DNA of 16,840 nt, from assembly GCA_913052515.1 (NCBI GenBank), contig CAJXFJ010000002.1, forward strand, positions 1 through 16,840. Reading direction: 5' to 3'. Of this stretch, positions 1 to 16,840 are shown piece after piece (the first letter of the stretch is position 1; every line of letters begins with the position of its first letter). The notes beneath the pieces are model-generated. The model was not told the origin of the DNA and did not search any database. It worked only from the letters and a program-made list of their open reading frames with translations. This DNA comes from an uncultured Flavobacteriales bacterium (GTDB lineage Bacteria; Bacteroidota; Bacteroidia; Flavobacteriales; Vicingaceae). Position numbers and translations under genes: made by a program.

Positions 1-744
1 AAATCTTTTTATAAACTGAAATTAAAAGTTCGTCATAAGATTGTAGCTGATGGACTAGATGATGGCACTTTTGATGTAACCAATGTGGGTAGGCATTTAT
101 CCGCAAAAGAGTTTAATGAAGCCTTGAATGATCCAAACTCCATTGTGATTGATATGCGGAATCACTATGAAAGTGAAGTGGGGCATTTTGAAAATGCGAT
201 TTGCCCAGATGCCGATACATTTAGAGACGAATTGCCGCAAGTAGAGGAGATTTTAAAAGGGAAAGAAGATAAAAAAGTGCTGTTGTACTGTACGGGTGGA
301 ATTCGTTGTGAAAAAGCTTCAGCATACCTAAAACATAAGGGATTTCAAGATGTGAATCAACTGCATGGAGGAATCATAGATTATTACCGTCAGATTAAAG
401 ATGAAAATCTTGAGAATCGATTCAAAGGGAAAAACTTTGTTTTTGATGAGCGCTTGGGCGAACGAATTTCGACAGAGATAATTAGTGAATGTCATCAATG
501 TGGAAAGCCTTGCGATACACATACCAATTGCAAAAATGACGATTGTCATTTGCTGTTTATTCAATGTGACGAATGCGCTGAAAAAATGAATGGCTGCTGC
601 ACACCAGAATGCAAAGACATTGCAGCCTTGCCTGAAGAAGAACAAAGAAAATTGCGAAAAACAAATAAAAATAAGGCTAAGCGAAATGTGTATAAAAGTC
701 GATTGAGACCCGACCTTAAGCAGATTTTAGCAGACAAGAAATAA
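1..744 (+). CDS. trhO: tRNA uridine(34) hydroxylase TrhO (UPF0176), 3' part
   Basis: TrhO proteins (formerly YceA/UPF0176) use oxygen to hydroxylate U34 in the anticodon of certain tRNAs, a step toward wobble-base modification. The frame is open from base 1, so the gene enters from the left edge. The GTG at 85 is internal, because the residues before it ([13 protein letters not shown] and following) are family-typical. The 247 codons present are about 100 short of the roughly 350 usual for the family, so the N-terminal domain is missing. A rhodanese domain is visible, with the active-site loop CTGGIRC; the presumed catalytic Cys codon is at 289-291. A C-terminal Cys-rich segment follows (about 490-612, starting CHQC and ending CTPEC, ten Cys), typical of the family, then a basic tail rich in Lys and Arg. 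It ends with TAA at 742-744, 31 bases before hmgA, with no terminator between, so read-through into hmgA is possible. Confidence 0.93.
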
Positions 745-775
745 TGCCTAATTTCAAACAACCAAAAAATGAAAT

Positions 776-1939
776 ATGCCTTTTTATAGAAAATTAGGAA
801 AGATACCACATAAGCGCCACACGACTTTTAAAAAGGAAGATGGCTCTTTGCATTATGAGCAACTTTTTGGAACGGTTGGCTTTGATGGAATGTCCTCTTT
901 AATGTATCATTTACATCGTCCAACCATGGTGGTGGAGCATTTAGGATCTAAAAATGTGATGCCCAAAATTGCCGTTGAAAAGAATTTTAAATCAAGGAGA
1001 TTAATTGGGTTTGATGTAAAACCACAAGACGATTATTTAGAAAGCCGAGAGGCGATGCTGTGTAATAATGATTTAATTGTTGCTTTAGCGGCCCCTAAAA
1101 AATCGACTAAAGATTATTTTTATAAAAACACCGACTCTGATGAGGTTATATTTATCCATAAAGGGAGTGGAAAGCTTCGAACTTTTTTGGGAAATATTGA
1201 CTTCAAATATGGAGACTACCTCGTTATTCCAAGAGGAATGATTTATAAAATGGACTTTGATTCAGAAGATAATCGCCATTTTGTGGTAGAGTCTGCTAGT
1301 CCGATTTATACACCTAAGCGTTACCGAAATTGGTTTGGGCAATTGTTGGAGCACTCTCCTTATTGCGAAAGAGATTTTAGGACTCCGCAAGAGTTGGAAA
1401 CACATGATGAGAAAGGCGAATTCTTAATTAAAATCAAAAAAGAAGGGGTTATTCATGATTATGTCTATGCCTCTCACCCTTTTGATGTTGTAGGTTGGGA
1501 TGGCTTTAATTATCCGTATGCTTTCTCCATTCATGATTTTGAACCAATAACCGGTCGAGTACATCAACCACCACCTGTACATCAAACATTTGAGGCTGCT
1601 GGTTTTGTCATATGCTCATTTGTACCTCGTTTATACGATTACCATCCGGAGTCTATTCCAGCTCCCTACAATCATTCAAACATTGATTCGGATGAGGTTT
1701 TGTATTACGTAGATGGAGACTTTATGAGTAGAAATGATATTGCGCAAGGTCAGATTACCTTGCATCAGGCAGGAATTCCACATGGGCCGCACCCAGGAGC
1801 TTATGAGCGAAGTGTAGGGCAAAAAGAAACGGAAGAATTAGCGGTAATGGTGGATACATTTAAACCGCTTAAAGTAACAGAGAATGCATTAAAAATTGAT
1901 GACGGGAAGTATTATAAGAGTTGGATTGAGGATAGCTAG
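776..1939 (+). CDS. hmgA: Homogentisate 1,2-dioxygenase
   Basis: This Fe(II) enzyme opens the aromatic ring of homogentisate to maleylacetoacetate in cytoplasmic tyrosine/phenylalanine catabolism. The 387-residue protein starts MPFYRKLGKIPHKRH, a typical start for the Bacteroidota type. An overlapping ATG at 769 is out of frame and stops within seven codons, so ATG 776 is chosen. The C-terminal cupin carries the likely metal ligands: His300 and Glu307 in HSNIDSDE, and His336 in PHGPHPG. By position these match human HGD His335, Glu341 and His371; the first-to-last spacing is 36 in both, although the His-Glu spacing is one residue longer here. The motif VHQTFEAAGFVICSFVPR lies just upstream of the site. 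The protein is shorter than the human enzyme (about 445 residues), as in other bacterial short forms. It acts directly downstream of the hppD product, but hppD is separated from it by an unrelated small gene. Confidence 0.95.
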   Translation: MPFYRKLGKIPHKRHTTFKKEDGSLHYEQLFGTVGFDGMSSLMYHLHRPTMVVEHLGSKNVMPKIAVEKNFKSRRLIGFDVKPQDDYLESREAMLCNNDLIVALAAPKKSTKDYFYKNTDSDEVIFIHKGSGKLRTFLGNIDFKYGDYLVIPRGMIYKMDFDSEDNRHFVVESASPIYTPKRYRNWFGQLLEHSPYCERDFRTPQELETHDEKGEFLIKIKKEGVIHDYVYASHPFDVVGWDGFNYPYAFSIHDFEPITGRVHQPPPVHQTFEAAGFVICSFVPRLYDYHPESIPAPYNHSNIDSDEVLYYVDGDFMSRNDIAQGQITLHQAGIPHGPHPGAYERSVGQKETEELAVMVDTFKPLKVTENALKIDDGKYYKSWIEDS

Positions 1940-1970
1940 ATTAGAGAGTAAAGAAAAGAGAAAATAGATA
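1939..1970 (+). repeat. Left arm of imperfect inverted repeat flanking the four-helix-bundle gene
   Basis: This is a purine-rich stretch that begins GATTAGAGAG directly at the end of hmgA and continues as runs of AGA and AAAAGAG. It is roughly complementary, with gaps, to the pyrimidine-rich stretch after the small gene; the best-matching ends are GATTA here and TAATC at 2362-2366. The low base complexity means the match could partly be compositional. An AGCTA lies just outside each arm (1934-1938 and 2371-2375). Confidence 0.45.
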
Positions 1971-1975
1971 TTTAA

Positions 1976-2335
1976 GTGTCACAGAGATTAAGACATAATT
2001 ATAAGAACTTAAAAATTTGGAAAGTTGGTATAGAGATTGGAAATCAAATTTTTGATTTGAGTTCAAATTTTCCACCTGAAGAGAAATACAGCTTAACATC
2101 ACAAATTAATCGCTCTGCTATTTCTATTCCAAGCAATATTGCAGAAGGCTCTTCTAGAACAGATAAATCATTCTCTCGCATTATTGATATTTCATTGGGC
2201 TCATCCTTTGAATTAGGGACACAACTTATATTAGCAGAAAAAAGAAAATTTATAACAGAAAAAGAACTAAACCAAATTGAAGAGAAATTAGAAGAGTTTC
2301 AGAAAATGAGCATGGTCTTTCAGAATAGACTTTAG
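1976..2335 (+). CDS. Four-helix bundle protein (23S rRNA intervening-sequence family)
   Basis: This is a 119-residue protein of the S23/IVP four-helix-bundle family. Members are encoded inside 23S rRNA intervening sequences, or as stand-alone genes in many Bacteroidota; a related fold serves as the accessory protein of diversity-generating retroelements. The cellular role of stand-alone members is not settled. Family signatures are visible: YKNLKIWKVGIEI in helix 1, IPSNIAEGSSR between helices 2 and 3, LGSSFELGTQL in helix 3, and a charged C-terminal helix (about residues 90-117). An in-frame TAA (1973-1975) directly precedes GTG 1976, so this GTG is the earliest possible start; no clear ribosome binding site is seen. 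The gene splits hmgA from hppD, 36 and 39 bases from each, and both gaps consist of the flanking inverted-repeat material. No reverse transcriptase or template repeat is nearby, so a retroelement role is unlikely here. Confidence 0.9.
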   Translation: MSQRLRHNYKNLKIWKVGIEIGNQIFDLSSNFPPEEKYSLTSQINRSAISIPSNIAEGSSRTDKSFSRIIDISLGSSFELGTQLILAEKRKFITEKELNQIEEKLEEFQKMSMVFQNRL

Positions 2336-2366
2336 CTCTCTATTCTATACTCTCTTCTCTATAATC
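2336..2366 (+). repeat. Right arm of imperfect inverted repeat flanking the four-helix-bundle gene
   Basis: This is a pyrimidine-rich stretch, CTCTCTATTC followed by TATACTCTCTTCTCTATAATC, between the small gene's stop codon and hppD. Its reverse complement (starting GATTATAGAGAAGAGAG) resembles the stretch before the small gene. In an RNA the two arms could pair around the whole small gene, as the ends of rRNA intervening sequences do. Confidence 0.45.
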
Positions 2367-2374
2367 TTAAAGCT

Positions 2375-3532
2375 ATGAAGGAAATTAAATCAGTAGACTA
2401 CGGACTAGAAAAAATATTTGAAGGAGCGCAAGATTTCTTGCCGCTTTTAGGAACAGATTATGTGGAATTATATGTTGGAAATGCAAAGCAAGCCGCACAT
2501 TTTTATAAAACGGCTTTTGGATTTCAATCCTTTGCCTATAGTGGCTTAGAAACTGGTAATAAAGACACTGTTTCTTATGTACTTAAGCAAGATAAAATCC
2601 GCTTAATGCTTACTTCGCCTTTAAGTTCAAAAAGCCCAATAAACGAGCATATAGTTAAGCATGGCGACGGCGTTAAAATTGTGGCACTTTGGGTAGACGA
2701 TGCAAGAAAGTCATGGGAGGAAACAACCAAACGTGGAGCAAAATCTTATTTAGAACCAACAGTTTTAGAAGATGAGAACGGTGAAATTGTTAAAGCAGGT
2801 ATCTACACTTATGGCGAAACCGTTCACATGTTTGTAGAGCGTAAAAATTACAAAGGTGATTTTATGCCTGGCTTTAGAAAATGGGAATCCGATTACAAAC
2901 CTGAGTCAGTTGGTTTGAAGTTTATCGATCACATGGTAGGAAATGTAGGTTGGAATGAAATGAATACCTGGGTAAAATGGTATGAGGATGTGATGGGCTT
3001 TGTTAACTTCTTGTCTTTCGATGACAAACAAATTCATACTGAATATTCAGCTTTGATGAGTAAGGTAATGAGTAATGGAAACGGAAGAATTAAGTTTCCA
3101 ATCAATGAACCTGCTGAAGGAAAGAAAAGATCTCAAATTGAAGAATATTTAGATTTTTATGAAGGTCCAGGAGTACAACACATCGCTGTGGCAACAGATA
3201 ATATCATTGACACAGTTAGCAAATTGCGTTCAAGAGGTGTTGAGTTTTTGTCAACTCCGCCAGAAACATATTATGAGCAAGTGCCTTTAAGATTGGAAGA
3301 GCATGATCATGAATTGAGAGAAGATTTAGAAGTGCTGAAAGGATTAGGGATTATGGTAGATGCTGATGATGAGGGTTATTTATTGCAAATTTTTACCAAA
3401 CCAGTTCAAGATAGGCCAACCTTATTTTTTGAGATTATTCAACGAATGGGTGCTAGGGGATTTGGTGCAGGAAATTTTAAAGCCTTGTTTGAATCTATTG
3501 AGAGGGAGCAAGAACTTAGAGGAACATTGTAA
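2375..3532 (+). CDS. hppD: 4-hydroxyphenylpyruvate dioxygenase
   Basis: This Fe(II) enzyme converts 4-hydroxyphenylpyruvate to homogentisate, the substrate of the hmgA product, in the cytoplasm. The 385-residue protein has two vicinal-oxygen-chelate (glyoxalase-like) halves. The N-terminal half covers about residues 20-160 and starts near FLPLLGTDYVELYVGNAKQA. The catalytic C-terminal half covers about residues 180-370. The metal triad is visible: His186 in FIDHMVGNV, His269 in GVQHIAVAT and Glu353 in FFEIIQR. The spacing is close to that of Pseudomonas HPPD (His161, His240, Glu322). The conserved C-terminal tail GARGFGAGNFKALFESIEREQ is intact. The ATG lies 39 bases after the four-helix-bundle gene in pyrimidine-rich DNA with no Shine-Dalgarno sequence or recognisable promoter, so transcription probably comes from upstream through hmgA. 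A terminator follows directly. Confidence 0.96.
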   Translation: MKEIKSVDYGLEKIFEGAQDFLPLLGTDYVELYVGNAKQAAHFYKTAFGFQSFAYSGLETGNKDTVSYVLKQDKIRLMLTSPLSSKSPINEHIVKHGDGVKIVALWVDDARKSWEETTKRGAKSYLEPTVLEDENGEIVKAGIYTYGETVHMFVERKNYKGDFMPGFRKWESDYKPESVGLKFIDHMVGNVGWNEMNTWVKWYEDVMGFVNFLSFDDKQIHTEYSALMSKVMSNGNGRIKFPINEPAEGKKRSQIEEYLDFYEGPGVQHIAVATDNIIDTVSKLRSRGVEFLSTPPETYYEQVPLRLEEHDHELREDLEVLKGLGIMVDADDEGYLLQIFTKPVQDRPTLFFEIIQRMGARGFGAGNFKALFESIEREQELRGTL

Positions 3533-4117: not shown

Positions 4118-6568
4118 ATGAAAAAAGTACTATTCGCTATTTGTGCAATAATTTCAATTTCAATAACAGCACAACCAAGTTTTCTAGGAATGAATAATAG
4201 CTTAGCTAAACATTGGAATGGCAACATTTTTAGTGTGGATGTTGCAAGCAATTCTATGCAAACGGAGTATGATTTTTTCATGTTTGAAGGAAGTAGTTAT
4301 AAAGGAACACTGATTGAATTTAATAACAAACTGTATGGTGTGACCTCTCAAGGGAATGGACATTTTACTGGAGTAATTTATTCTTATGATTTATCAACTG
4401 GTAAATACGAACAACATTACCAATTTAACAATGCGACAGATGGTAGTGGTCCGCGAGCAGGTATGATATTAGTCAACAATAAACTTTATGGCACAACGTA
4501 TGGAGGTGGAGTAAATCTTGATGGTGTAATATTTGAATTTGACCCTGCAACAAATCAGTACACCAAGCTACATGATTTTGATAATACAAATGGAAAAGGA
4601 CCATTGGGTGCTTTACTACATGCTAACAATGGATTGCTTTATGGTATGACACAATATGGAGGGTCTAACTCAGATGGAGTAGTTTTTAGTTATAATCTTT
4701 CAACTTCTACTTTTACTAAACTTCAAGATTTAGCTGCTTCAACTACAGGAGAGAGACCTTCTGGAGCATTAATGCAGGCTTCAAATGGATTGCTTTATGG
4801 TCTTACAGAATTTGGTGGTTCAAATTCACGAGGTACCATGTTCACTTTTAATACCAATACAAACAGTTTTTCAGTCATACATAATTTTATAGCTGGACAA
4901 CCCGATAATCCTGAAGGGACGCTTTTCGAAGCTTCGAATGGCAAATTATATGGTATAGCCGGTGGGGAAATTTTTGAATGGAACATTACAACTTCTACTT
5001 TTACAAAGAAAGTGGCATCTGGTAGCAATTTAAGTCTATATGGAGACTTTATAGAGCCAACCACAGGAATGTTATATGCTTTAGGCCAAAACCAAAGAAT
5101 TATCAGATATGATTTAGCTATGGACACACTTGGTCTGGCCGCCAATCCAAACTACACATCTATTAATAACAACTACGGTAGCAATACGGCAACACATGGA
5201 AGATTATCAACTGGCTCCTTAATAAAAGCTTCGAACAATAATTTATATGGGGTTTCTTACGATGGAGGAATTGCTGGAGATGGTGTTTTCTTTGAATATG
5301 ATATGACACTTGATAGCATGTCAACTAAATTTCACTTCGGTGAAAGAGAGGCAAGCATGGCAAACGGTACTTTAGTTAGAGCAAGTAATGGAAAGTACTA
5401 TGGGTGTAGCCGTGAAGGAGGGAATGATAACGAAGGTGTCTTTTTCGAATTTGATGAATCTACGAGAACTTATAGAACAGTCTACCATTTTCATGATTCG
5501 ATAGGTGCTGTTAAGCCGGTTAACCTGCTTGAAGAAAATGGGGTGATTTATGGCTTAGGCAGTGGAACCTTTGGAAACTTGAGTGGAAATCGATTTGTCA
5601 TTTTTAAATATAATGTGGCACAAGATGCTGTTAGTTTTAGTGCAAAGACCTTGGGTAATTTAGCTTATCAAGGACCTGCTAGCCAAGGGTTTATAAAGGC
5701 CACTAATGGTCATCTTTATGCTCTAACAAGTTCTAGTATTATACATTATGAATTAGCAACTGATTCAATAATTATTGATCATACTTTTTCAGGAATCAGT
5801 GATGTTAGAGATTGTAGAGGTAGACTAATGCAAGCTTCAAACGGATTGCTATATGGAACTAGCCGGTCTGGTGGTGTTTATAGAGATGGTACATTTTTTA
5901 GCTACGACATAGTTGCCGATACAGCACACATTGAACAAAGCTTGTATCCAGGTATTGGTGAAGCGTCTACTAGTACACCTGTTCAGGCTGGAAATGGTAA
6001 AATTTACTTTACAGCCTACGAAGGAGGTAACTACTCTGATGGAACTATGTTAGAGCATGATCCAATTAGCAGAACTACCGTAAGAAAGCAGAATTTCAGA
6101 ACATCTAACAATGGGAGATGGCCTTCAGGACATTTGACATTAGCATCTGATGGAAATATTTATGGTATTGTCACTGATGGGGGATCTGCAGGTCATGATG
6201 GCGCGATTTATAAGTATCAACCAGGTACTACATCCATTACAACTGTTGTAACCTATTCAGGTATTGAAGGAGATCCCTTTGTGAATAACGGATTGATAGA
6301 ATATACGAGAACATTCACAACCTTAGAAGACAAAAAAATCGAAGAAAATTTATTTTCAATGTTCCCAAATCCTTCTAGTTCAGCGCTAAATATAATTTCT
6401 GAAAGTGGAATAAAAACCGTACACATATTGAATTTATTAGGACAAACCGTATTTGAAAGTGAATACAACCAAAACCAAGTTAGGATTAACCTTGAGTCTA
6501 TTCCAAATGGAAACTATGTGGTAGTTGTAAATAGAACAAGAGCACAGAAATTAATTATTCAGCACTAA
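4118..6568 (+). CDS. Secreted GloVer-repeat protein with T9SS sorting domain
   Basis: This 816-residue protein is probably exported across the outer membrane and attached to the cell surface or released by the type IX secretion system. A signal peptide covers about residues 1-19 (MKKVLFAICAIISISITAQ). From about 60 to 710 run tandem repeats of roughly 50-65 residues, with the theme xxNGLLYGxTxxGGxxxxGxxFxYDxxTxxxxxxxxF. This matches the choice-of-anchor tandem repeat (GloVer, TIGR03803 type), likely a beta-propeller-like or beta-rich fold. Clear copies contain NNKLYGTTYGGG, NNGLLYGMTQYGGSN, SNGLLYGLTEFGGSN and SNGLLYGTSRSGG. The C-terminus (about 743-816) is a type A sorting domain, with MFPNPSSSALNI, the strand VHILNLLGQTVFE and the end GNYVVVVNRTRAQKLIIQH. 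Some repeat boundaries are nearly identical in DNA (for example 4768 and 5834), suggesting internal duplication. The gene is monocistronic, with its own promoter and a strong terminator. No enzymatic motif is seen; the substrate or binding role is unknown. Confidence 0.9.
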   Translation: MKKVLFAICAIISISITAQPSFLGMNNSLAKHWNGNIFSVDVASNSMQTEYDFFMFEGSSYKGTLIEFNNKLYGVTSQGNGHFTGVIYSYDLSTGKYEQHYQFNNATDGSGPRAGMILVNNKLYGTTYGGGVNLDGVIFEFDPATNQYTKLHDFDNTNGKGPLGALLHANNGLLYGMTQYGGSNSDGVVFSYNLSTSTFTKLQDLAASTTGERPSGALMQASNGLLYGLTEFGGSNSRGTMFTFNTNTNSFSVIHNFIAGQPDNPEGTLFEASNGKLYGIAGGEIFEWNITTSTFTKKVASGSNLSLYGDFIEPTTGMLYALGQNQRIIRYDLAMDTLGLAANPNYTSINNNYGSNTATHGRLSTGSLIKASNNNLYGVSYDGGIAGDGVFFEYDMTLDSMSTKFHFGEREASMANGTLVRASNGKYYGCSREGGNDNEGVFFEFDESTRTYRTVYHFHDSIGAVKPVNLLEENGVIYGLGSGTFGNLSGNRFVIFKYNVAQDAVSFSAKTLGNLAYQGPASQGFIKATNGHLYALTSSSIIHYELATDSIIIDHTFSGISDVRDCRGRLMQASNGLLYGTSRSGGVYRDGTFFSYDIVADTAHIEQSLYPGIGEASTSTPVQAGNGKIYFTAYEGGNYSDGTMLEHDPISRTTVRKQNFRTSNNGRWPSGHLTLASDGNIYGIVTDGGSAGHDGAIYKYQPGTTSITTVVTYSGIEGDPFVNNGLIEYTRTFTTLEDKKIEENLFSMFPNPSSSALNIISESGIKTVHILNLLGQTVFESEYNQNQVRINLESIPNGNYVVVVNRTRAQKLIIQH

Positions 6569-6783: not shown

Positions 6784-9636
6784 ATGGTTATTCGAGTTTT
6801 AAAGAGTTTCTTCATTGTATTTGTTTGCTTTTCACTGAATGCAAGTGGCTTTGTTTCTGAAGAGTCTAATCAACCTTCTAGAAATTCCCATCAGGAATAT
6901 AGTAGTTCTTCAAATTATAGCATTCAACATTGGACAAGCCGAGAGGGCTTACCTCAAAACTCTATTAATACGATAATTCAAGCTAAAGATGGTTACTTAT
7001 GGATTGGAACCTTTGGGGGTGTATGTCGCTTTGACGGACTTACTTTCGAGAAAATAGAGCATCCTAAACTGGCTTACGAAAGAGTCATTACTTTGTTTGA
7101 GTCTTATGATAGTGCCATTTGGTTAGGTACAGAAAACAACGGACTTTTTCGATATAAAAAAGGTAAAGTGAAACATTTTACCGTGAATAACGGATTGCCT
7201 GGAAATGGCGTGAATAGCATATTTCAATTTGAGAAAGATAAAATAGGAGTGCTCATTCATGATAAAGGTATTTGCATTTTAAATGACGATAGCATTTATT
7301 TTAATCCTAATAATGTTTTTCCCAACAAAGTGCTTCTTGAGCAAGCCATAGTTGATGAAAAAAACCAAATTTGGATGGCTACCTCAGAAGGGGTTTTTAT
7401 GCTAAAGAGACCAGATACTCTTCTGCAAAAAGTAATAGGTAGTGAATTTCCTATTCAAGGGAAAGCTTTGAATTTAACTCAACAAGGTTCACTTTTATAT
7501 GCAAATAGAAAGGCAGTTTTTATTATCAATAGAGAAGAATTAGCAATTCAAGACACACTAAGTATTGTTAATAAAGAGCTTTCTTCCAAACAACTAATAG
7601 CTGACGATGAGGAAGTGTGGTTTGGGACGCATAACAGTGGTGTATTTCGTTTGGCGAAAAAGGAATTGAAGCAATGGGATAAAGGGATGGGTTTGGAGAA
7701 TGGAAGTGTTAGTGCTCTATTTAAAGATAGGTCGGATAATATATGGGTGGGTATAAATGGAGGAGGGTTATTGAAATTTTCTCAGAACCTAGTTGAGTCT
7801 TTAAGTGATAGTTCTCAACTGAGTTCAAAATCCATTTTACCGATTTATGAATACAAAAAGAACCAATTATTAATAGCAACTAATGGAGGAGGGGTTTATC
7901 ATTATAATGCAACTAATCGAGAAATAAAAAAGCTTCCAGACTCTTTAGGAGTACTTTCGGGTGTTTGGTCAATTGCCGGAAATGAAAAAGAGCTTTGGTT
8001 TGGCACCTTTGGAGAAGGTCTTTTTTATTGGAATTTTTCACAGAATAAGCCTGTTGAGCAAATATTTAATTGGCCTGCGAAAAGCGACTTGGTCAATGCA
8101 ATGTTTTATGACCCTGTTGATAGTTGCTTATTAATTGGAAATGACCAAGGAGGACTTTTTAAATTCAAAAACAATATCTGGCAGACCTTAATTTCAGAGG
8201 ATTTAAAAAAAGCCAGGATTTCACAAATAGTTGTGCATCAAGATAAAATTTATTTATCGACTCAAGGAGATGGGGTTATTATTTATGAAACAAATACGGA
8301 CAAAAGCTATGCCCTAAAAGGAATAAAGGAGCTTGAAAATAGTTCGATTAGATGCATGTTTTTTGATACTGCTGATAATCTGTGGATTGGCACATACGGT
8401 AAAGGATTAATACTCAAAAGAGGATATCATTTTTATACCATAGATAAAGAGAAAGGACTTTTTGATAACCTGATTTCGAGTATCAATGAGGACTCGCAAG
8501 GTAATTTATGGATGAGTTGTAATCGAGGGGTTTTTAAAGCTAAGAAACAAGACCTAATTGATGTGGCAACGGGAGCTATTGAGCTTGTAAAGTGTAAGGT
8601 ATACAATAGCTCTCATGGTATGAGTAATACAGAAACCAATGGAGGGTTTCAGCCTTCTAGTTGTCAGCTTGAAGATGGTAGCCTGTTTTACCCGACCATG
8701 AAGGGTGTTTCTAGATTTAATCCCAAGAAGAAATTTAAAGCCGAAAAGATTGAGTCCATACTCATCAATTCAATTAAGCTAAAAGACTCTACTTTTATTC
8801 CTCAAGACGAAAATAGAATTGCTCCTCAATATCGAGATATTAGTTTCATCTACACTGCTCCTTCTTTTACTGCACCAGAACTTATTCGCTTTAAATATAA
8901 ACTAGAGGGCTATGACGAAGAATGGCAAAACAATGGTTTTTTAAGAATAATCAATTATACCAATTTAGACCCAGGGAGCTATGTTTTAAAAATTAAAGCA
9001 ATTGACAGTCAGGGTATAGAAAGTGATAAGATTGCCGAAACCCGCTTTTACTTGGTCCCAAATTGGCATGAAATAATTTGGGTAAGGGCTTTAATCTTAC
9101 TTTCCTTGCTCTACTTAGGTTATAGAATTATGAAGTTTTTTCAGTTTAGGAAGCTTCAAAGAGAGGTTAATGAGCAGAAAATTAAGCTTGCGGAGCTAAA
9201 GATTGGTGGCCTAAATAAAGAGATAACAAAAAATAAAAGAGAATTAACTACCTATACGCTTGAGGTTATCGAAAAAAATAATTTGTTGAGAGAGATTAAG
9301 GAAAACCTCAAAAAGGTAGATAGTAATCAAGATACGGCTAACCTTGAGCGAATGGTCAAATTTGGCTTAAATGAAAAGCAAGACTGGGTAGAATTTAAAA
9401 AACGTTTTACGAATGTGGATGATGAATTTATTCAAAAACTTCGTGCAAAACATCCCCAATTAACCAAAGGGCAAATTCGATTAGCATCACTTATAAAACT
9501 AGGTTTTAGCTCAAAACAAATTGCTGAATTCTTAAATATAACTCCTCCATCTGTAGATGTTGCGAGAAGCAAATTGCGTAAAATATTGAATTTAACAACA
9601 AAGGATAGCTTGTATGACTACCTTGTAAGTATTTGA
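6784..9636 (+). CDS. Membrane-anchored propeller-sensor transcription factor (Reg_prop, Y_Y_Y, LuxR-type HTH)
   Basis: This 950-residue one-component regulator would sense a ligand outside the inner membrane and bind DNA inside. An N-terminal signal/anchor (about 1-21, VLKSFFIVFVCFSLNASG) is followed by about eleven Reg_prop blades between residues 50 and 600. Examples are GYLWIGTFGGVCRFDG, AIWLGTENNGLFRYK, NIWVGINGGGLLKFS, LWFGTFGEGLFYW and NLWIGTYGKGLI. A Y_Y_Y domain follows (about 690-755, with FIYTAPSF, FKYKLEGYDEEWQ and LDPGSYVLKIKA). Then come one membrane helix (about 762-785), a charged coiled coil (about 786-860) and a C-terminal LuxR/GerE-type helix-turn-helix (about 890-950, LTKGQIRLASLIKLGFSSKQ and then IAEFLNITPPSVDVARSKLR). 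No histidine kinase, phosphoacceptor or receiver domain is present, unlike the hybrid two-component systems with the same sensor. Intact membrane attachment implies DNA binding at the membrane, for which Bacteroides SusR is a precedent. The neighbouring giant secreted protein is a plausible target, by position only. Confidence 0.92.
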   Translation: MVIRVLKSFFIVFVCFSLNASGFVSEESNQPSRNSHQEYSSSSNYSIQHWTSREGLPQNSINTIIQAKDGYLWIGTFGGVCRFDGLTFEKIEHPKLAYERVITLFESYDSAIWLGTENNGLFRYKKGKVKHFTVNNGLPGNGVNSIFQFEKDKIGVLIHDKGICILNDDSIYFNPNNVFPNKVLLEQAIVDEKNQIWMATSEGVFMLKRPDTLLQKVIGSEFPIQGKALNLTQQGSLLYANRKAVFIINREELAIQDTLSIVNKELSSKQLIADDEEVWFGTHNSGVFRLAKKELKQWDKGMGLENGSVSALFKDRSDNIWVGINGGGLLKFSQNLVESLSDSSQLSSKSILPIYEYKKNQLLIATNGGGVYHYNATNREIKKLPDSLGVLSGVWSIAGNEKELWFGTFGEGLFYWNFSQNKPVEQIFNWPAKSDLVNAMFYDPVDSCLLIGNDQGGLFKFKNNIWQTLISEDLKKARISQIVVHQDKIYLSTQGDGVIIYETNTDKSYALKGIKELENSSIRCMFFDTADNLWIGTYGKGLILKRGYHFYTIDKEKGLFDNLISSINEDSQGNLWMSCNRGVFKAKKQDLIDVATGAIELVKCKVYNSSHGMSNTETNGGFQPSSCQLEDGSLFYPTMKGVSRFNPKKKFKAEKIESILINSIKLKDSTFIPQDENRIAPQYRDISFIYTAPSFTAPELIRFKYKLEGYDEEWQNNGFLRIINYTNLDPGSYVLKIKAIDSQGIESDKIAETRFYLVPNWHEIIWVRALILLSLLYLGYRIMKFFQFRKLQREVNEQKIKLAELKIGGLNKEITKNKRELTTYTLEVIEKNNLLREIKENLKKVDSNQDTANLERMVKFGLNEKQDWVEFKKRFTNVDDEFIQKLRAKHPQLTKGQIRLASLIKLGFSSKQIAEFLNITPPSVDVARSKLRKILNLTTKDSLYDYLVSI

Positions 9637-9651
9637 AAAACAAAATAATAT

Positions 9652-9687
9652 AAAAAGGGTTAAGACGAAGTTAAGATGCCTTTTTTT
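9652..9687 (+). terminator. Weak possible terminator after the regulator gene
   Basis: AAAAAGG (9652-9658) can pair with CCTTTTT (9679-9685) across a 20-base loop, and a T-run ends at 9687. With two G-C pairs and a long loop it would be weak. It is the only terminator-like structure between the regulator and the giant gene, so partial read-through is possible. Confidence 0.3.
9659..9676 (+). repeat. Direct repeat GTTAAGA spaced 11 bp upstream of the giant gene
   Basis: GTTAAGA occurs at 9659-9665 and again at 9670-9676, about one helical turn apart, some 45-60 bases upstream of the predicted -7 box of the giant gene. This spacing suits an activator site. TTAAGA also occurs twice upstream of the GloVer gene (3983 and 4054, the latter as TTAAGATG like the copy here). 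Short AT-rich words make this weak evidence. Confidence 0.35.
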
Positions 9688-9758: not shown

Positions 9759-12700
9759 ATGAAAAAAAATCTACTGCTTCTTGTTTTAATTTTTGTCTTT
9801 TTTGCAAATGGCTTTGCCCAATACGATTATGGTATTGGTATGCGTTTCCAACACAGACCTTATGGCTGCCCTTCGAACGACATTAATACATATGTAGGTG
9901 TTTCTTCTGGCAATTTTACAGTTACTCCTAACAAAGCCGATGGATCTGTAGAAATTTCTTTTCTGCAAGCCAATACAGGCTTATATATGCTAAACGTTAA
10001 CTTGAAAATTGACGGTCAAATTCGTTTTGCCTATCACGACCATGATGCTGCTAGACATCCTACCATCACACGACTGGACGTAAGAGCAGATAATTCCGTA
10101 AATCCGCCTGTTTCTTTAATGCCTGCGGCTACAGGTGGAAATTGGCCAAGTGGTTCTGGAAGTGCAGGGAGTAAAACCAATAGTCAGTATGGTACAGACT
10201 ATAACTATCAGTTTTGGGAAAGTACAAATGGCACAATAACGCTTCGCCATGTGAAGTTTACTAATTTACCAAATAGCTTCTTTTCGTCAGGTCATACTTT
10301 TGAAATTGCTGGTCAAATGAGACTAGGTAACAACAATAACTGTTGGAGAACTTCCAATAGAAATGAGGTGAATCGAACAACAACTACTTTGTATCCAAGT
10401 AGCTTCAAAACAGAAATATCACCTACCAATGTTCAAATCACCAATCGTACATGTTCATCTGCTGAAATTAGTTGGGGTAAAAGTGGTTCAGCAGCAGATG
10501 CAAATATAGAATGGGAAGTTTTTTATAATGGTACAAGTTCTGGTCGTTTATCTGGTTCAACAAGCTCTTATACGATTCCAAATCTAGGAACAGGAAATAC
10601 TTCTGCCTTTGTGCGAGCCTATTATGGTTTACCAGGAAGGGGAACCTATTATCGAACAGGGCTGGATAAATCGATTACGCTTAGCCCAAGTGGTTTTAGT
10701 GGAAACTTTAATAACTTCCGTTCAACGGGAAATTGCGATGGCTCTATCAATCTAAACTGGGACTTTGATAATAATGAAGCAACAAGTTTTGAAATTCAAA
10801 GAGATGTAAACCCAAATTTTTCCGCTCCTTCTAGTTTAACATCTAATGGAAACAGTACCGTAGACCAAGGTACACAAAGTGGCCAGCAATATTATTATCG
10901 TTTGCGGGCGGTTCGAACTTGCCCTACGAAAACTTCCAATGTGGTGAGAACTTCTTATTCAAACACCTTGCAAGCAGAAGGTGGTGGAAATCCAACTGCT
11001 CCAACTCAAGTGCTTGTAGATGACGCCTTGACGAATTCTTCTGCGAGAGAAATTACCTTACGTTGGAAGGACAATTCAGGAACAGAAGACGGTTATCGAA
11101 TAGTTCGTTCTTCTTCTTCGGGAACAGTTCAAATTGATGTATCTGCAAACGATACAGTTTATGTTGATAATGGACTTCAAACCTGTGAATTGTACACCTA
11201 TCGAGTAAAAGCTTTTAATGCCTGTGCGACCAATGGGGTGCAATCCATAAGCAGTGATACGGTAAGTTTGTCGCCAGATGTTTCAACTACCTTTTCCGCA
11301 TTACCGAACGAACGAATTACTGCCACAGATGGAGATTTTGGTGATCGAATTGATTTAAAGTGGAATACCCAAAACAGACAAAATGAAAGTTGGGACATTA
11401 CAAGAACCAATGTATTGGATACAACGGATAAAACCGTAATTGCAAGTTTGCCTGCTGGAACCAAGTTTTACTCAGACAATACAGCCGCAGCCAATACACT
11501 TTATCGTTATGATATTCAAGGTATTTCTGATTGTGCCGGTCAAACCGTTTTATCAAACACCTCTAGCGATCAAGGTTTTCGCTTGGCTTATGGAACCGTA
11601 AATGGACAAGTAACTTACGGGGGTGGAACCGCAGTTGAAGGCGTTAAAGTTTTAGCCAGTTCTGTGAATGGAGCAAGTGGCAAGTCGGCATATTTCAATG
11701 GAACAAACTCTTATGCATCGGTGAAAGATGTGACGCAGTTTCATTCCACTGCTTTTACTTTAACAGCTTTTATCCGCTTAAACTACAACAAAAATGGGAG
11801 ACAAGTATTAGCTTCAAAATATGACGTCAGTCAAAATGGATGGATGGTCTTTTTTGAAAATGGAGATTTAAAAGTTGCACTTAACGGTACTGAAAGAACT
11901 TTAACGACACCAACGTCTAAATCCTATGCTACATGGGCTAACCTTGCAGTTGTGGTTAATGGAACTACTGTAACCAGCTATTGGAATGGAGATTCTACAG
12001 ATACACAAACCTTTCCAGCTTCTGCAACCTTTAATAACGATGATATACTGATTGGAAAAGAATCAAGTGGCAACTACTTTGAAGGTTTTATCGATGAAAT
12101 GCGATTTTATAAAAATGCACTGAGTAAAACCCAAATCAAAAGAACGTATGATGTATTTATCAATCCTTCATCGACTAATTTGGTAGGTTATTGGAGGTTT
12201 GATGAAGGAGTTGGAAGTACAGCCTACGATTATTCAAAAGTAGCTTTAATCCCCAATCGAAATCATGCAACATTAAATGGCACGGTAGTATTTAGTGATA
12301 CCATTCCAAGTCAAAATCAATTGACAGCTGGGGCTTATACCAATGTAAGCGGAAGTTATTTTATTCCTTTTATTCCTTTTCAAGGCACGGGAGACAATTT
12401 TACCCTTACACCCACTTTTGGAGTACACACTTTCACTCCAGCCAATACAACCATTTTTATTGGCGGAACCAATCCCAATTTTTCGGGAATTGATTTCATT
12501 GATAATTCTTCTTTTACCGTTCAGGGTTCGGTTGTTTTTAAAGGAACTCCTTGTGCAGTAGAAGATGTATTTGTTTTAGTGGATGGCTCTGTGGCAACAA
12601 AAGCAAATCAACCCATTTCCACAAATGATTCTGGCTTGTTTAGTGTTGAGGTTCCCATTGGAGAGCATTTTATTTCTTTGCAAAAGAATGGACATACCTT

Positions 12701-15700
12701 TGAAATTGGCCGTTTCCCACAAAGCGGGGTTTTTGATTTTCAAGATAATGTTGTTATCCCTCAACCTTTTGTTGATTCTACGCTAAGAATTGTTCGAGGA
12801 AGAGTTGCCGGTGGAGAAATTCAAGCAAATTTGCCTGTAGGTCTTGGTAGAGGCAAAAACAACATCGGTTCAGCTTCTATCATTTTTAATGCTACCCAGC
12901 GGACCTGTTTTCAAGATACGGTTAGAACTGATTCTCTAACTGGAGAATATGTGATCAAATTGCCACCACTCAATTATGAAGTGCCATCTTTTGTAGTGAA
13001 TTCAAGTAATTTCAGATTTGGAAACAATACGCAACCAAACGCCAATCTTAACCTAGTCAATAATATTCCCTTGCAAACTGTGCGAGATTCTATTTACGAT
13101 TCATTGGCACAAGTATGGAGGGTTGATACAAGTACTTTTCATGTAAAACGGAACTTTATCCGTTACAATACTCCCAACTTAGATGTGTTTGCGGAGGATA
13201 GTAGTCGTTTTTATGGACAGCAGCAAATTATACTCGATTTAATTGGAGGTAGAGATACGATTGATGCGCTAGGACTCTTAAACATTGGCGGTTACACCAT
13301 CCCTACTTTTACCGATGGAAGAAGAGCTGGATTTAAAATTACTGCCTTTGAAGAATATGAAAACCGTGACAATCCATCCTCAATTGTGATCGATCGAATT
13401 CCCATTTCAAGGGGAACCATTTCTATTAAAAATGAATTTGCTCAAACTTTAAACAACAGCTTTGTTGTTTCTCCAACAGATACCAACCGTTTTAACGGAG
13501 TTTACGACTATCAATTTACGGTAGGCCCAGCCAATGCAACTGAAAACTTATTGGATACCAATTTAAGTTTTACGCAAAGTTTAGAAGTAGAGTTGGTTAC
13601 AAATAATGGAACGGTTCAATGGTTGCCAAATCCTAATAATTCACCTTTAGTTGCTCGTGTGTTAGGTGCAGTTCCTTTGGGTGGAACTTTTGCCACTTTA
13701 GGCCCTCAAGTGGTGACTATGGTTTTGCGAGATCCACCCGGTTCAGAGAGTTTTGCCACTTGGGAACAAGGCGTTTCTCAAACCAATTCAGTTTCTTTTA
13801 ATGTTACTGCTGGGGCTGCTGCTTTTACTGAAAACAGCATTAAAGCAGGTACGGCTTTTTCTTTGTCTGATCCAATCGGAGTGATTTCCATTGATTCAGA
13901 AGTGAGTGCAACAGCACGAACTGGAGTGAGTGTAGAAAGTTCCATTGGTGCAGGTGGGGAATTTATAGAATCAACAACTTTAAACACCTCCGTTTCTACT
14001 GGTAATGGAATTGAGTTTGTGGGCGCTGATGCCGATATTTTTATTGGCCGCTCCATGAACATGGACTTTGGCCTTTCAAATTTAATTACCCTCGTTGATG
14101 AGGCTCAATGTGGAAATCCAAATGTGAGTTGTGTAGGAAGTGCTTTTCAAGTTTCTCCTACAAAAAGGCTAAAGTTTGCTCGAAAAAAATCCATGTACGT
14201 AGTGCCCGGAGGATATGGAACAGAGTTTTTTTATACCCAAAGAAGCATCGAAGAATTCGTTATTCCCAACCTAGAATTGTTGCGTAACAATTATTTAGAT
14301 TCTGCAGTAAAGGCCAACGGACAGCCTCTCTATACCAAGTACATTACTTCTGGTCCTGATTATGGAAAAAGCAATGATGACCCAACTTTAACGGCAGCCG
14401 GAAGTACTGCTCCTGCCCAGTTTAGAAGCCTTACACCAGACCATGAATTAAATACGGCTGAAGACAGTGCGGGTTTAAGTTATCAATTTCATGGTTATGA
14501 GGTAACCACACGAACGTATAATGTCAGAGAAGTACAGTTTGGTAGGAATTCTATTACCGGTCAGCTTGAGGTAGGTTATGTTACGGTTCCGAAAACGGAA
14601 ACGATTATTGAAGGGGTTGATAGTGTTTGGTGGTATAATCAGCAGATTCGTTTGTGGGTAGATGCTTTGGCCCGAAATGAGCGAGAGAAAGTTGAAGCCA
14701 TGAGCAAGCCTCCTATGAAAAACATCTCCATTTCAAGTGGTGTGAATTTATCAGAATCAGAAACAACGGTAAAGGATACAACAACTACGATTAATTGGTC
14801 TGCAAACTTGAGTGCCCAAGCGGCCGTGGAAGTAAAATCGGAAGTCGGGGGTTCAGGCTTGGGAGCTTCTGCAGGTATGAAAGTTTCTCTTTCTACCAAT
14901 GGAAATGCCAGTTTTAGAACAGCGGTTTCCAATACCATTTCTTATACGCTGAAAGATTCCGATGGGGATGACGTTACCTCCATTGATGTTTTTAAAGGTA
15001 AGGATGGCTTTTCTCCTTCTTTTAGCGTTCGAGGTGGACAAACTTCTTGCCCTTACCAAGATTCTACCACTACCAAATATTACTTACCAGGAACCAAAAT
15101 AGATAATGCTACCATTCCTACCGAAGACCCTGGTTTGTCCGTATTTCCTTCTAATCTAGCAAACATTCCAGCCAATAGTCCTGGGGTTTTCAACTTGACT
15201 TTACAAAATCCTACCAGTTTCGATAATGTCTATTCCTTAAAAGTCTTGGAAGGCACAAACCCTAATGGTGCCATTATAAAAGTAGATGGGTTAGATCCAA
15301 ATCGAGATTTTGCCATACCAGCTAATTCTTCTATCAACAAACAACTTACGATTGAAAGAGGGCCCGCTGCTATTGAATACGACAGTATTGTGATTTTGCT
15401 TCACTCGGTTTGTCAGTTTGCTTCAGGCACAGCTGCTTTCAAGGATATTTATGACGAAGTAAGTATTTCGGCAAGTTTTCTACCTTCTTGTACTGAATTA
15501 CAAATCTCTGCACCTGATAATCAATTTGTGTTTAACTCAAACTTTAATGGGGCTTTGCCGATTACCATTGATAATTACGACATCAATTACTCAGGTTTAT
15601 ATAAAATAGACTTGCAATACAAACCTTCTTCTCAGTCGGCATGGAGAACATTACCTACCGCATGGTACAAAGATTCAGCTGATGTAAGAGCACAGTTTCA

Positions 15701-16840
15701 AGCTGGGGATTCTTCGGCTTTAATTATTCCAAGAGGGCAATCATTTATTCAGTATGATTTTGATTTTGTGCCTTTCATTGATCAAAGCTATCAGTTTCGG
15801 GCGGTTTCAGAATGTCGCATTCCTGGAAATCCAAATAAGGTAGAATTTTCTGAAGTCGTTGGTGGAATTGTGGATCGAACCAAGCCATCTCCTTTCGGAA
15901 CGCCTAGTCCTGCTGATGGTATTTTAGACCCTAACGATGACATAAAAATCAAGTTTAACGAGCCAATTGAAGCTGGTTCATTAACGCTTCAAAATTTTCA
16001 ATTAACCGGAGTTACCAATGGCCAAGCCTTGCGTAACGACAAAGCCATTCGTTTTGATGGAACCAACGATTATCTGGAAATTGCAAATGGCTTGAACAGT
16101 TTTGAAGGCAGTTTTACGGTTGAGTTTTGGGCCAAGAGAAATCAGATTGGCTTAGCTCAAACCATTTTGTCGCAAGGCTCATCCGCTAACAATACTTTTT
16201 CCATCGGATTTACCGCTTCTGATTCCATTCAATTGCAATTGGGAAATCGAACGTTTACTTCTACTTATGTTGAAAATGAGTTGGGAAAATGGAAGCATTA
16301 TACAATTAGCTACGATGAAGAAAATTTAACGGTAGACATTGTTGTGCGCTTTGGTGCTACAACTAAATCGGCCATTTCAAACAACTTTTTTGGAAACTAC
16401 AATAATTCAGGGAAAACCTTTATTGGGAAAAGTGCTTCTTCGAATGCCAATTATTTCAACGGTTCAATTCATGAATTGCGCATTTGGACAAGCTATTTAT
16501 CAGCGGCTGAAATTGCAGCTAGAATGGGCGTCAGCCTTTCTGGAAGAGAGCCTTCTTTGGCGGCTTATTATCCGATGAATGAAGGAAGAGGAAGTGTGGT
16601 GGTTGACAAAGCCAGAATGCGAAATGCGCAATTTTTCGCTGAATGGGAAATCAATCCAAGCAGTTCTTCTTTGGCTTTAGATGGTGTTAACCAATACGCC
16701 ATAGTAGATACAGCGGGTACAATTGCCATTAGCAACACCGAAGATTTTACCCTTGAATTTTGGTTTAAAACCAATGGGGGTAGAAGAATGAGCATGTTGA
16801 GCAATGGCAGCGGACAAGAGTTGTCAACCGACATAAACAC
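9759..16840 (+). CDS. Giant secreted multidomain protein (FN3, prealbumin-like, LamG), 5' part
   Basis: The frame is open from ATG 9759 to the window edge, at least 2,360 residues; I translated it without meeting a stop or frameshift. A signal peptide covers about residues 1-20, with likely cleavage GFA/QYDYG. A beta-rich N-region (22-215) precedes four fibronectin-III-like domains (about 217-307, 308-409, 411-507, 508-610). At 611-918 a prealbumin/carboxypeptidase-regulatory-like domain (GTVNGQVTYGGGTAVEGVKV, later YTNVSGSYFIPFIPF) appears split by LamG 1 (about 636-855, ending LVGYWRFDEG). Two further prealbumin-like units follow, at about 918-985 (SSFTVQGSVVFKGTPC) and 1007-1085 (GRVAGG, GLGRGKNNIGSA). 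Residues 1085-2035 form a long core I cannot assign. A Big_5-like start (2038-2088, PSPADGILDPNDDIKIKFNE) runs into LamG 2 (2090-2271) and LamG 3 (2303 onward). Such domains suggest adhesion, matrix or glycan binding. The C-terminus lies outside the window, so a T9SS sorting domain is expected but not shown. Confidence 0.9.
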   Translation, partial: MKKNLLLLVLIFVFFANGFAQYDYGIGMRFQHRPYGCPSNDINTYVGVSSGNFTVTPNKADGSVEISFLQANTGLYMLNVNLKIDGQIRFAYHDHDAARHPTITRLDVRADNSVNPPVSLMPAATGGNWPSGSGSAGSKTNSQYGTDYNYQFWESTNGTITLRHVKFTNLPNSFFSSGHTFEIAGQMRLGNNNNCWRTSNRNEVNRTTTTLYPSSFKTEISPTNVQITNRTCSSAEISWGKSGSAADANIEWEVFYNGTSSGRLSGSTSSYTIPNLGTGNTSAFVRAYYGLPGRGTYYRTGLDKSITLSPSGFSGNFNNFRSTGNCDGSINLNWDFDNNEATSFEIQRDVNPNFSAPSSLTSNGNSTVDQGTQSGQQYYYRLRAVRTCPTKTSNVVRTSYSNTLQAEGGGNPTAPTQVLVDDALTNSSAREITLRWKDNSGTEDGYRIVRSSSSGTVQIDVSANDTVYVDNGLQTCELYTYRVKAFNACATNGVQSISSDTVSLSPDVSTTFSALPNERITATDGDFGDRIDLKWNTQNRQNESWDITRTNVLDTTDKTVIASLPAGTKFYSDNTAAANTLYRYDIQGISDCAGQTVLSNTSSDQGFRLAYGTVNGQVTYGGGTAVEGVKVLASSVNGASGKSAYFNGTNSYASVKDVTQFHSTAFTLTAFIRLNYNKNGRQVLASKYDVSQNGWMVFFENGDLKVALNGTERTLTTPTSKSYATWANLAVVVNGTTVTSYWNGDSTDTQTFPASATFNNDDILIGKESSGNYFEGFIDEMRFYKNALSKTQIKRTYDVFINPSSTNLVGYWRFDEGVGSTAYDYSKVALIPNRNHATLNGTVVFSDTIPSQNQLTAGAYTNVSGSYFIPFIPFQGTGDNFTLTPTFGVHTFTPANTTIFIGGTNPNFSGIDFIDNSSFTVQGSVVFKGTPCAVEDVFVLVDGSVATKANQPISTNDSGLFSVEVPIGEHFISLQKNGHTFEIGRFPQSGVFDFQDNVVIPQPFVDSTLRIVRGRVAGGEIQANLPVGLGRGKNNIGSASIIFNATQRTCFQDTVRTDSLTGEYVIKLPPLNYEVPSFVVNSSNFRFGNNTQPNANLNLVNNIPLQTVRDSIYDSLAQVWRVDTSTFHVKRNFIRYNTPNLDVFAEDSSRFYGQQQIILDLIGGRDTIDALGLLNIGGYTIPTFTDGRRAGFKITAFEEYENRDNPSSIVIDRIPISRGTISIKNEFAQTLNNSFVVSPTDTNRFNGVYDYQFTVGPANATENLLDTNLSFTQSLEVELVTNNGTVQWLPNPNNSPLVARVLGAVPLGGTFATLGPQVVTMVLRDPPGSESFATWEQGVSQTNSVSFNVTAGAAAFTENSIKAGTAFSLSDPIGVISIDSEVSATARTGVSVESSIGAGGEFIESTTLNTSVSTGNGIEFVGADADIFIGRSMNMDFGLSNLITLVDEAQCGNPNVSCVGSAFQVSPTKRLKFARKKSMYVVPGGYGTEFFYTQRSIEEFVIPNLELLRNNYLDSAVKANGQPLYTKYITSGPDYGKSNDDPTLTAAGSTAPAQFRSLTPDHELNTAEDSAGLSYQFHGYEVTTRTYNVREVQFGRNSITGQLEVGYVTVPKTETIIEGVDSVWWYNQQIRLWVDALARNEREKVEAMSKPPMKNISISSGVNLSESETTVKDTTTTINWSANLSAQAAVEVKSEVGGSGLGASAGMKVSLSTNGNASFRTAVSNTISYTLKDSDGDDVTSIDVFKGKDGFSPSFSVRGGQTSCPYQDSTTTKYYLPGTKIDNATIPTEDPGLSVFPSNLANIPANSPGVFNLTLQNPTSFDNVYSLKVLEGTNPNGAIIKVDGLDPNRDFAIPANSSINKQLTIERGPAAIEYDSIVILLHSVCQFASGTAAFKDIYDEVSISASFLPSCTELQISAPDNQFVFNSNFNGALPITIDNYDINYSGLYKIDLQYKPSSQSAWRTLPTAWYKDSADVRAQFQAGDSSALIIPRGQSFIQYDFDFVPFIDQSYQFRAVSECRIPGNPNKVEFSEVVGGIVDRTKPSPFGTPSPADGILDPNDDIKIKFNEPIEAGSLTLQNFQLTGVTNGQALRNDKAIRFDGTNDYLEIANGLNSFEGSFTVEFWAKRNQIGLAQTILSQGSSANNTFSIGFTASDSIQLQLGNRTFTSTYVENELGKWKHYTISYDEENLTVDIVVRFGATTKSAISNNFFGNYNNSGKTFIGKSASSNANYFNGSIHELRIWTSYLSAAEIAARMGVSLSGREPSLAAYYPMNEGRGSVVVDKARMRNAQFFAEWEINPSSSSLALDGVNQYAIVDTAGTIAISNTEDFTLEFWFKTNGGRRMSMLSNGSGQELSTDIN

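Follow-up and report, generated by a model that had tools for sequence, protein, structure and literature searches.

A giant T9SS type A protein with a conserved, unnamed domain, and a possible cell-wall-anchored platform suggested by its relatives

The window (the whole stretch of DNA analysed, 16,840 nucleotides from an uncultured Flavobacteriales bacterium) contains no N letters, and its features are collected in Table 1. Its last 7 kb are filled by one frame that stays open from its ATG up to the window edge. An earlier reading, made from the sequence only, had described this frame as uninterrupted and had taken its product for a giant secreted protein, and both statements were borne out. 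A protein database entry (P0001) of 3,212 aa is identical to the window frame over 2,360/2,360 residues, so the missing C-terminal end of the window protein, for which the sequence-only reading had advised obtaining the downstream DNA, is known. Pfam analysis of P0001 revealed three LamG stretches, two fn3 stretches and a final T9SS type A tail (Por_Secre_tail, PF18962; residues 3133-3210, E 5.9e-8, 33.3 bits against a cut-off of 27). Judged by this C-terminal sorting domain (the PF18962/TIGR04183 criterion), the giant is a T9SS type A substrate. Bacteroidota bacteria appear to export it to their surface, and export through PorV is predicted. Relatives keep the frame at 26-46% identity, and therefore it is no chance frame. 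Concerning the flanking domains, the FN3 and LamG assignments of the earlier reading agree with Pfam, but its "prealbumin-like" and "Big_5-like" domains were not reported by Pfam.

Table 1. Features of the giant gene and of the region upstream of it (window positions)
Feature	Residues	Position	Strand	Basis or remark
Reg_prop/Y_Y_Y protein with weak LuxR-type (GerE) match; candidate regulator		6784..9636	+	Pfam; directly upstream of giant
Direct repeat GTTAAGA-N4-GTTAAGA, 11-bp period; candidate operator		9659..9676	+	upstream of giant gene
Giant T9SS type A substrate	1-2360 of 3,212	9759..16838	+	frame and database copy; stop and C-terminal signal beyond window
Putative signal peptide	1-21	9759..9821	+	by eye from sequence
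fn3 domain (best stretch)	425-489	11031..11225	+	Pfam
LamG (Laminin_G_3; best stretch)	647-794	11697..12140	+	Pfam
LRDPPG-SCPYE domain	1301-1789	13659..15125	+	no library family; relatives; model
LRDPPG motif	1323-1328	13725..13742	+	L, R, D and first P invariant in 58 similarity-chosen sequences
Hairpin 1	1332-1413	13752..13997	+	model: long strands, low-confidence tip; length nearly constant
Helix with WWYNQQIRLWVDALARNE	1622-1648	14622..14702	+	model; alignment of 58 sequences
Hairpin 2	1663-1732	14745..14954	+	model: two 33-residue strands, low-confidence tip; length nearly constant
CPYQ	1764-1767	15048..15059	+	Cys and Pro invariant in 58 sequences
Putative Ig-like domain 1	1788-1910	15120..15488	+	model and fold comparison
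Putative Ig-like domain 2	1911-2040	15489..15878	+	model and fold comparison
LamG (Laminin_G_2, below cut-off)	2158-2242	16230..16484	+	Pfam

A relative of the Reg_prop/Y_Y_Y protein (46% identical) also stands directly upstream of the giant in L064, a locus of a relative. The exact direct repeat was found in the window and at the corresponding place of L064 only, among 119 loci of which many do not cover that place. The protein and the repeat are candidates for the regulator and operator of the giant gene. The window also codes for a T9SS type A protein with ten matched TIGR03803 (GloVer) stretches (4118-6568). Locus L004 shares three window genes (1-3532) upstream of its own giant, 82-89% identical and in the same order, without the regulator; we take them to be genes for a rhodanese, a homogentisate dioxygenase-like and an HPPD-like protein. 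Between the latter two lies a 119-aa frame in the window (1976-2335), whose product is presumably four-helix-bundle-like.

The sequence-only reading had delimited a core (residues 1085-2035) that seemed to match nothing known. No match to these residues was found in Pfam, NCBIfam or PDB sequences, and the same core in four relatives (43-44% identity) gave only scattered weak matches, each in single members. A model of residues 1040-2040 (30 alignment rows; pLDDT 73, pTM 0.48), followed by fold comparison, suggests that residues ~1788-2040 form two Ig-like domains. Accordingly, profile searches provided no family for the core as a whole, but its last quarter looks Ig-like in the model. The core is two things, a domain of its own (~1301-1789), named here LRDPPG after its first motif, and the two putative Ig-like domains (1788-2040); because of the latter, the unassigned part comes down to the ~490 residues of the former plus residues ~1085-1300.

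Conservation within the LRDPPG domain was assessed in 58 sequences picked by similarity and not by motif, a set that is free of motif-selection bias. Invariant positions include L1323, R1324, D1325, P1326, S1331, G1422, D1426, N1640, K1644, C1764 and P1765, and W1633 is conserved in at least 90% of the sequences. The two signatures that had been quoted as conserved-looking indeed contain conserved positions (N1640, K1644, C1764 and P1765, together with W1633). In 27 sequences reaching down to 20% identity and partly chosen by motif, W1633 and P1503 were invariant as well; the conservation of RD and C in this set is partly by construction, since the core fragments (33 unique ones kept from 60) were found via motif patterns requiring an RD close to their beginning and a C close to their end. 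Many distant members (349-371 aa) lack an insertion in the middle of the domain. A separate model of residues 1301-1789 (48 rows, pLDDT 74, pTM 0.69) showed a confident centre and two long hairpins with tips of pLDDT <50. Hairpin length was compared in the 147 of 355 full cores that matched all four motif patterns, and both hairpins were nearly constant. The domain gave no convincing match in Pfam, NCBIfam or PDB sequences, its model gave none among known folds, and searching the 27 members against Pfam produced nothing consistent. The earlier proposal of an unnamed domain family was thus supported: the LRDPPG domain has no family in the libraries searched.

Relatives were collected in three similarity searches, in each of which scoring was confined to the ~8,000 candidates with the most words in common; they yielded 184, 123 and 279 proteins at E <= 0.001. 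Among the best 120 listed for each search there were 358 distinct proteins, all matching the core profile, as expected; 355 of these 358 listed relatives, with protein lengths of 521-3,809 aa, contain the complete LRDPPG domain. According to their source names, which are mostly labels of metagenome-assembled genomes, the listed relatives include members of Flavobacteriales, Saprospiraceae, Ignavibacteriaceae, Gemmatimonadetes, Cloacimonetes, KSB1, Latescibacteria and Fibrobacteres. With the core profile of the window's group, 29/395 genomes drawn from the class and 13/395 drawn from the phylum were positive, one genome in each draw (G367, G581) matching only outside the LRDPPG part; besides, 10/46 genomes of the family of L004 matched the window's own core. 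This kind of giant protein is not rare. Relatives that a source names are mostly called "LamG-like jellyroll fold domain-containing", "LamG domain-containing", "T9SS type A sorting domain-containing" or "hypothetical protein". Short relatives with the core and without the partner module described below were seen in L048 (6431-9067), L050 and L051, as frames of 879-1,455 aa; the one in L048 also carries GEVED and a type A tail, and LamG is absent from it.

The giants of relatives are accompanied by other genes, and the multi-gene row found there sustains the earlier suggestion of a surface system around the core. A partner protein opens with a module of ~125 aa, which we labelled nmod. Using self-built profiles, a partner starting with nmod was found to be the next same-strand gene in 22/22 loci of full-core relatives: 16 + 4 loci, i.e. 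all 20 full-core places found in two genome surveys, and those of two named isolates, Aureibacter tunicatorum and Flammeovirga kamogawensis. The module recurs once or twice in the giants, just before their own export signal (in P0001 at residues 2693-2802 and ~3000-3110); giant and partner nmod are homologous (E 6e-10 in that one comparison; the giant's second copy reached only E 0.002), and nmod gave no consistent match in Pfam. The partner ends in a type B signal (CHU_C) in 17 of the 20 full-core loci where this end is visible and in a type A signal in the other 3; A. tunicatorum and F. kamogawensis belong to the relatives whose partner is type A. Its middle consists of cadherin repeats in L004 and L060, and the L057 partner is reduced to nmod plus CHU_C (244 aa in all). 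In two cultured Cytophagales (L118, L119), giant and nmod partner lie on plasmids of 615 kb and 640 kb. The window's own partner genes would lie past its edge, a prediction made from the relatives.

The association between nmod and the core was also examined at genome level. In 14 self-chosen core genomes, 34 nmod frames were detected: 19 core proteins, 13 frames beside a core gene and 2 that form one pair whose giant position is unreadable; 2 of the 21 core frames of these genomes had no nmod. In the class draw of 395 genomes, nmod was present in 25, the core in 29 and both in 22 (Fisher p 5e-27), the draws for nmod and core being of equal size and, where listed, having matching genome labels; the genomes are related, and neither this co-occurrence nor the locus counts are made of independent cases. 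In 7/29 core genomes no nmod was found anywhere. The three nmod-only genomes comprised one with an unreadable giant position, one with platform genes and no giant in view, and one in which only a 3.2-kb contig was available. Among the 22 genomes with both, 14 had a separate nmod frame and 8 had nmod solely inside long frames, so a separate partner is not universal. Core proteins shorter or longer than the full-core group often stand without partner. For those of 2,100-2,900 aa, an nmod neighbour was present in 6 of 12 loci (an analyst-chosen subset of those found); one of these neighbours is separated from the core gene by another gene, and two are frames of just 140-145 aa. Long core frames outside the window's group (3,537-5,698 aa) were found in G161, G253, G267, G291, G330, G449, G565 and G685; neighbour data for them cover L062, where no nmod is seen in the following gene, which is truncated at the end of the contig, and G565, where an nmod neighbour is present. 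Genome G047 holds a large family expansion of eleven nmod-bearing frames (2,137-2,217 aa), eight of them on one contig; the three that were checked (L061) also have the core.

Following the partner, a PorP/SprF-like gene comes next in 15/15 type B loci where this position is visible; the PorP-like protein of L004 matches PF11751 with E 2.9e-50. All 18 PorP-like proteins examined, which come from relatives, lack a Cys-X-Cys C-tail. The last 110 residues are Cys-free in 17 of them, and the 18th has one Cys, located before its short tail. Most of these barrels carry a long charged tail (83-94 residues in 10 proteins measured by script; the others were judged by eye). Among the loci in view, a fourth gene was present in 14/14 cases after a long-tailed PorP and in 0/2 after a short-tailed one (L095, L102), the loci being related and the short-tailed cases few. 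Its product has a putative signal peptide (by eye) and a stretch that is charged and coiled-coil-like; a match to SPOR or OmpA was above the Pfam cut-off in 6 of 11 scanned proteins, below it in 4 and missing in 1. In these 11 proteins, of 186-256 aa, the PorE domains TPR and beta-propeller gave no match. The fourth protein is short and without TPR or propeller match, and therefore it would at most work like PorE and is not filed as PorE. Locus L114 contains the three platform genes (partner, PorP-like gene and fourth gene) with no giant in view; a platform may thus exist there that does not carry the giant as cargo. Passages of PMC9143113 and PMC12618676 put forward the view that a type B protein whose gene stands with PorP-like and PorE-like genes is static and linked to peptidoglycan. 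The gene row in relatives fits this static type B class, with a shorter putative binder.

Based on these results, we propose that the giant, a T9SS-exported, adhesin-like protein, is the business end of a static platform anchored to the cell wall, a reading that we hold to be evenly poised between right and wrong. In such a platform, whose row of partner, PorP/SprF-like barrel and short protein is known from relatives' loci alone, the type B partner would stay bound to its PorP barrel, and the charged tail of the barrel, together with the short fourth protein, would tie the barrel to peptidoglycan. The giant, with the type A signal found in its database copy, would dock onto the partner via the shared nmod, and would then point outward the FN3 and LamG domains that were detected in it directly, as was the conserved LRDPPG domain; the latter may use its two long hairpins to assemble with its own copies or with a target surface. 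The signal peptide and the two Ig-like domains of this scheme were read or modelled. Gene order and nmod homology, the unbroken adjacency of the partner (22/22), and the regular presence of the PorP-like (15/15) and fourth (14/14) genes count for the platform; against it count that the partner is not universal and that the fourth gene is too short for the TPR and propeller of PorE. Moreover, homologous modules in giant and partner may only share a fold or a ligand, and the anchor itself is not universal, the partner being type A in 3/20 full-core loci.

The giant could also be a free-standing adhesin, exported as a type A protein and then attached to LPS or released, its neighbour being an independent surface protein and the LRDPPG domain a structural spacer. 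According to the consulted sections of PMC9143113, no partner is involved when type A proteins become attached to A-LPS, and the six of 12 shorter core loci without an nmod neighbour, the eight of 22 genomes without a separate partner, and some core proteins of ~740 aa with just a type A tail (precomputed Pfam) agree with such a protein. It is opposed by the constant adjacency of the partner in full-core relatives and by the near-exclusive occurrence of nmod, in the genomes examined, in core proteins and their neighbours; besides, hairpins of nearly constant length would be unusual for a plain spacer. We consider this adhesin rather unlikely. An SprB/SprF-like gliding adhesin that is moved on a track would likewise explain a giant surface protein with a PorP/SprF-like neighbour in relatives, but the giant's signal is type A and not type B, a gene for a possible peptidoglycan binder follows, of a kind that published work links to static complexes, and the carriers lack the Cys-X-Cys that ties SprF to GldK in the part of PMC12635249 consulted. 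This makes gliding very improbable.

The hairpins themselves lead to another alternative. Barrels of the MACPF/CDC, aerolysin-type and secretin families are built from protomers with two long beta-hairpins around a compact core, an arrangement that the LRDPPG domain resembles in its model only. By analogy, the hairpins of each LRDPPG domain could provide strands of an oligomeric beta-barrel in a target membrane, with the platform presenting it. Sequence and fold comparisons gave no significant match of the LRDPPG domain to these families: PF01823 (MACPF) was absent among the Pfam matches of the 27 members at E <= 1, and hhalign of the domain with PF01823 gave a probability of 0.1%. A pore or barrel former is a distinctly unlikely reading. 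The boldest reading would make the LRDPPG domain a new barrel-forming family with double hairpins, one that extends across Bacteroidota, Ignavibacteria and neighbouring phyla and is absent from Pfam and NCBIfam. In this group, on a wall-anchored surface platform with nmod as docking module, it would constitute a T9SS-delivered perforating or membrane-bridging device; we give this reading a quite slender chance.

Taken together, the observation from which this work started was confirmed, and its interpretation was partly supported. A T9SS giant is an already known kind of protein; what is new here, to judge from the libraries and literature searched, is a variant with this domain, module and gene row. 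Large proteins with the domain run into the hundreds in Bacteroidota and related phyla; they are filed as LamG, as export signal or as hypothetical, and their conserved part has been nameless. A defined domain with motifs and a recurrent partner, barrel and short protein offers a concrete model for such "hypothetical" giants. In the model of an anchored static platform, T9SS substrates of type A and of type B could join in one complex, a link of which no description was found in the portions of the T9SS literature examined.

The direct relatives of the giant are the T9SS type A proteins that databases name "LamG-like jellyroll fold domain-containing", a name that covers LamG only and is silent on the LRDPPG domain and the partner. 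The pair SprB/SprF of Flavobacterium johnsoniae resembles the system in combining a giant T9SS adhesin with a PorP/SprF-like carrier (passages of PMC12635249); it differs in that here the giant is type A, the carrier has no twin-cysteine tail and a gene for a possible peptidoglycan binder is present. The PorE-PorP-PG1035 system of Porphyromonas gingivalis shares with the relatives' row a type B protein and a PorP-like barrel, and probably also a periplasmic protein that binds peptidoglycan, and the operons of F. johnsoniae for PorE-like, SprF-like and type B proteins contain the same kinds of genes, with a predicted static anchor (both from passages of PMC9143113 and PMC12618676). Unlike in PorE-PorP systems, the last protein of the row has a length of just 186-256 aa (11 proteins scanned) and gives no TPR or propeller match, a charged tail (83-94 residues where measured) is present in most barrels, and a type A giant heads the row, with a type B partner that shares a module with it.
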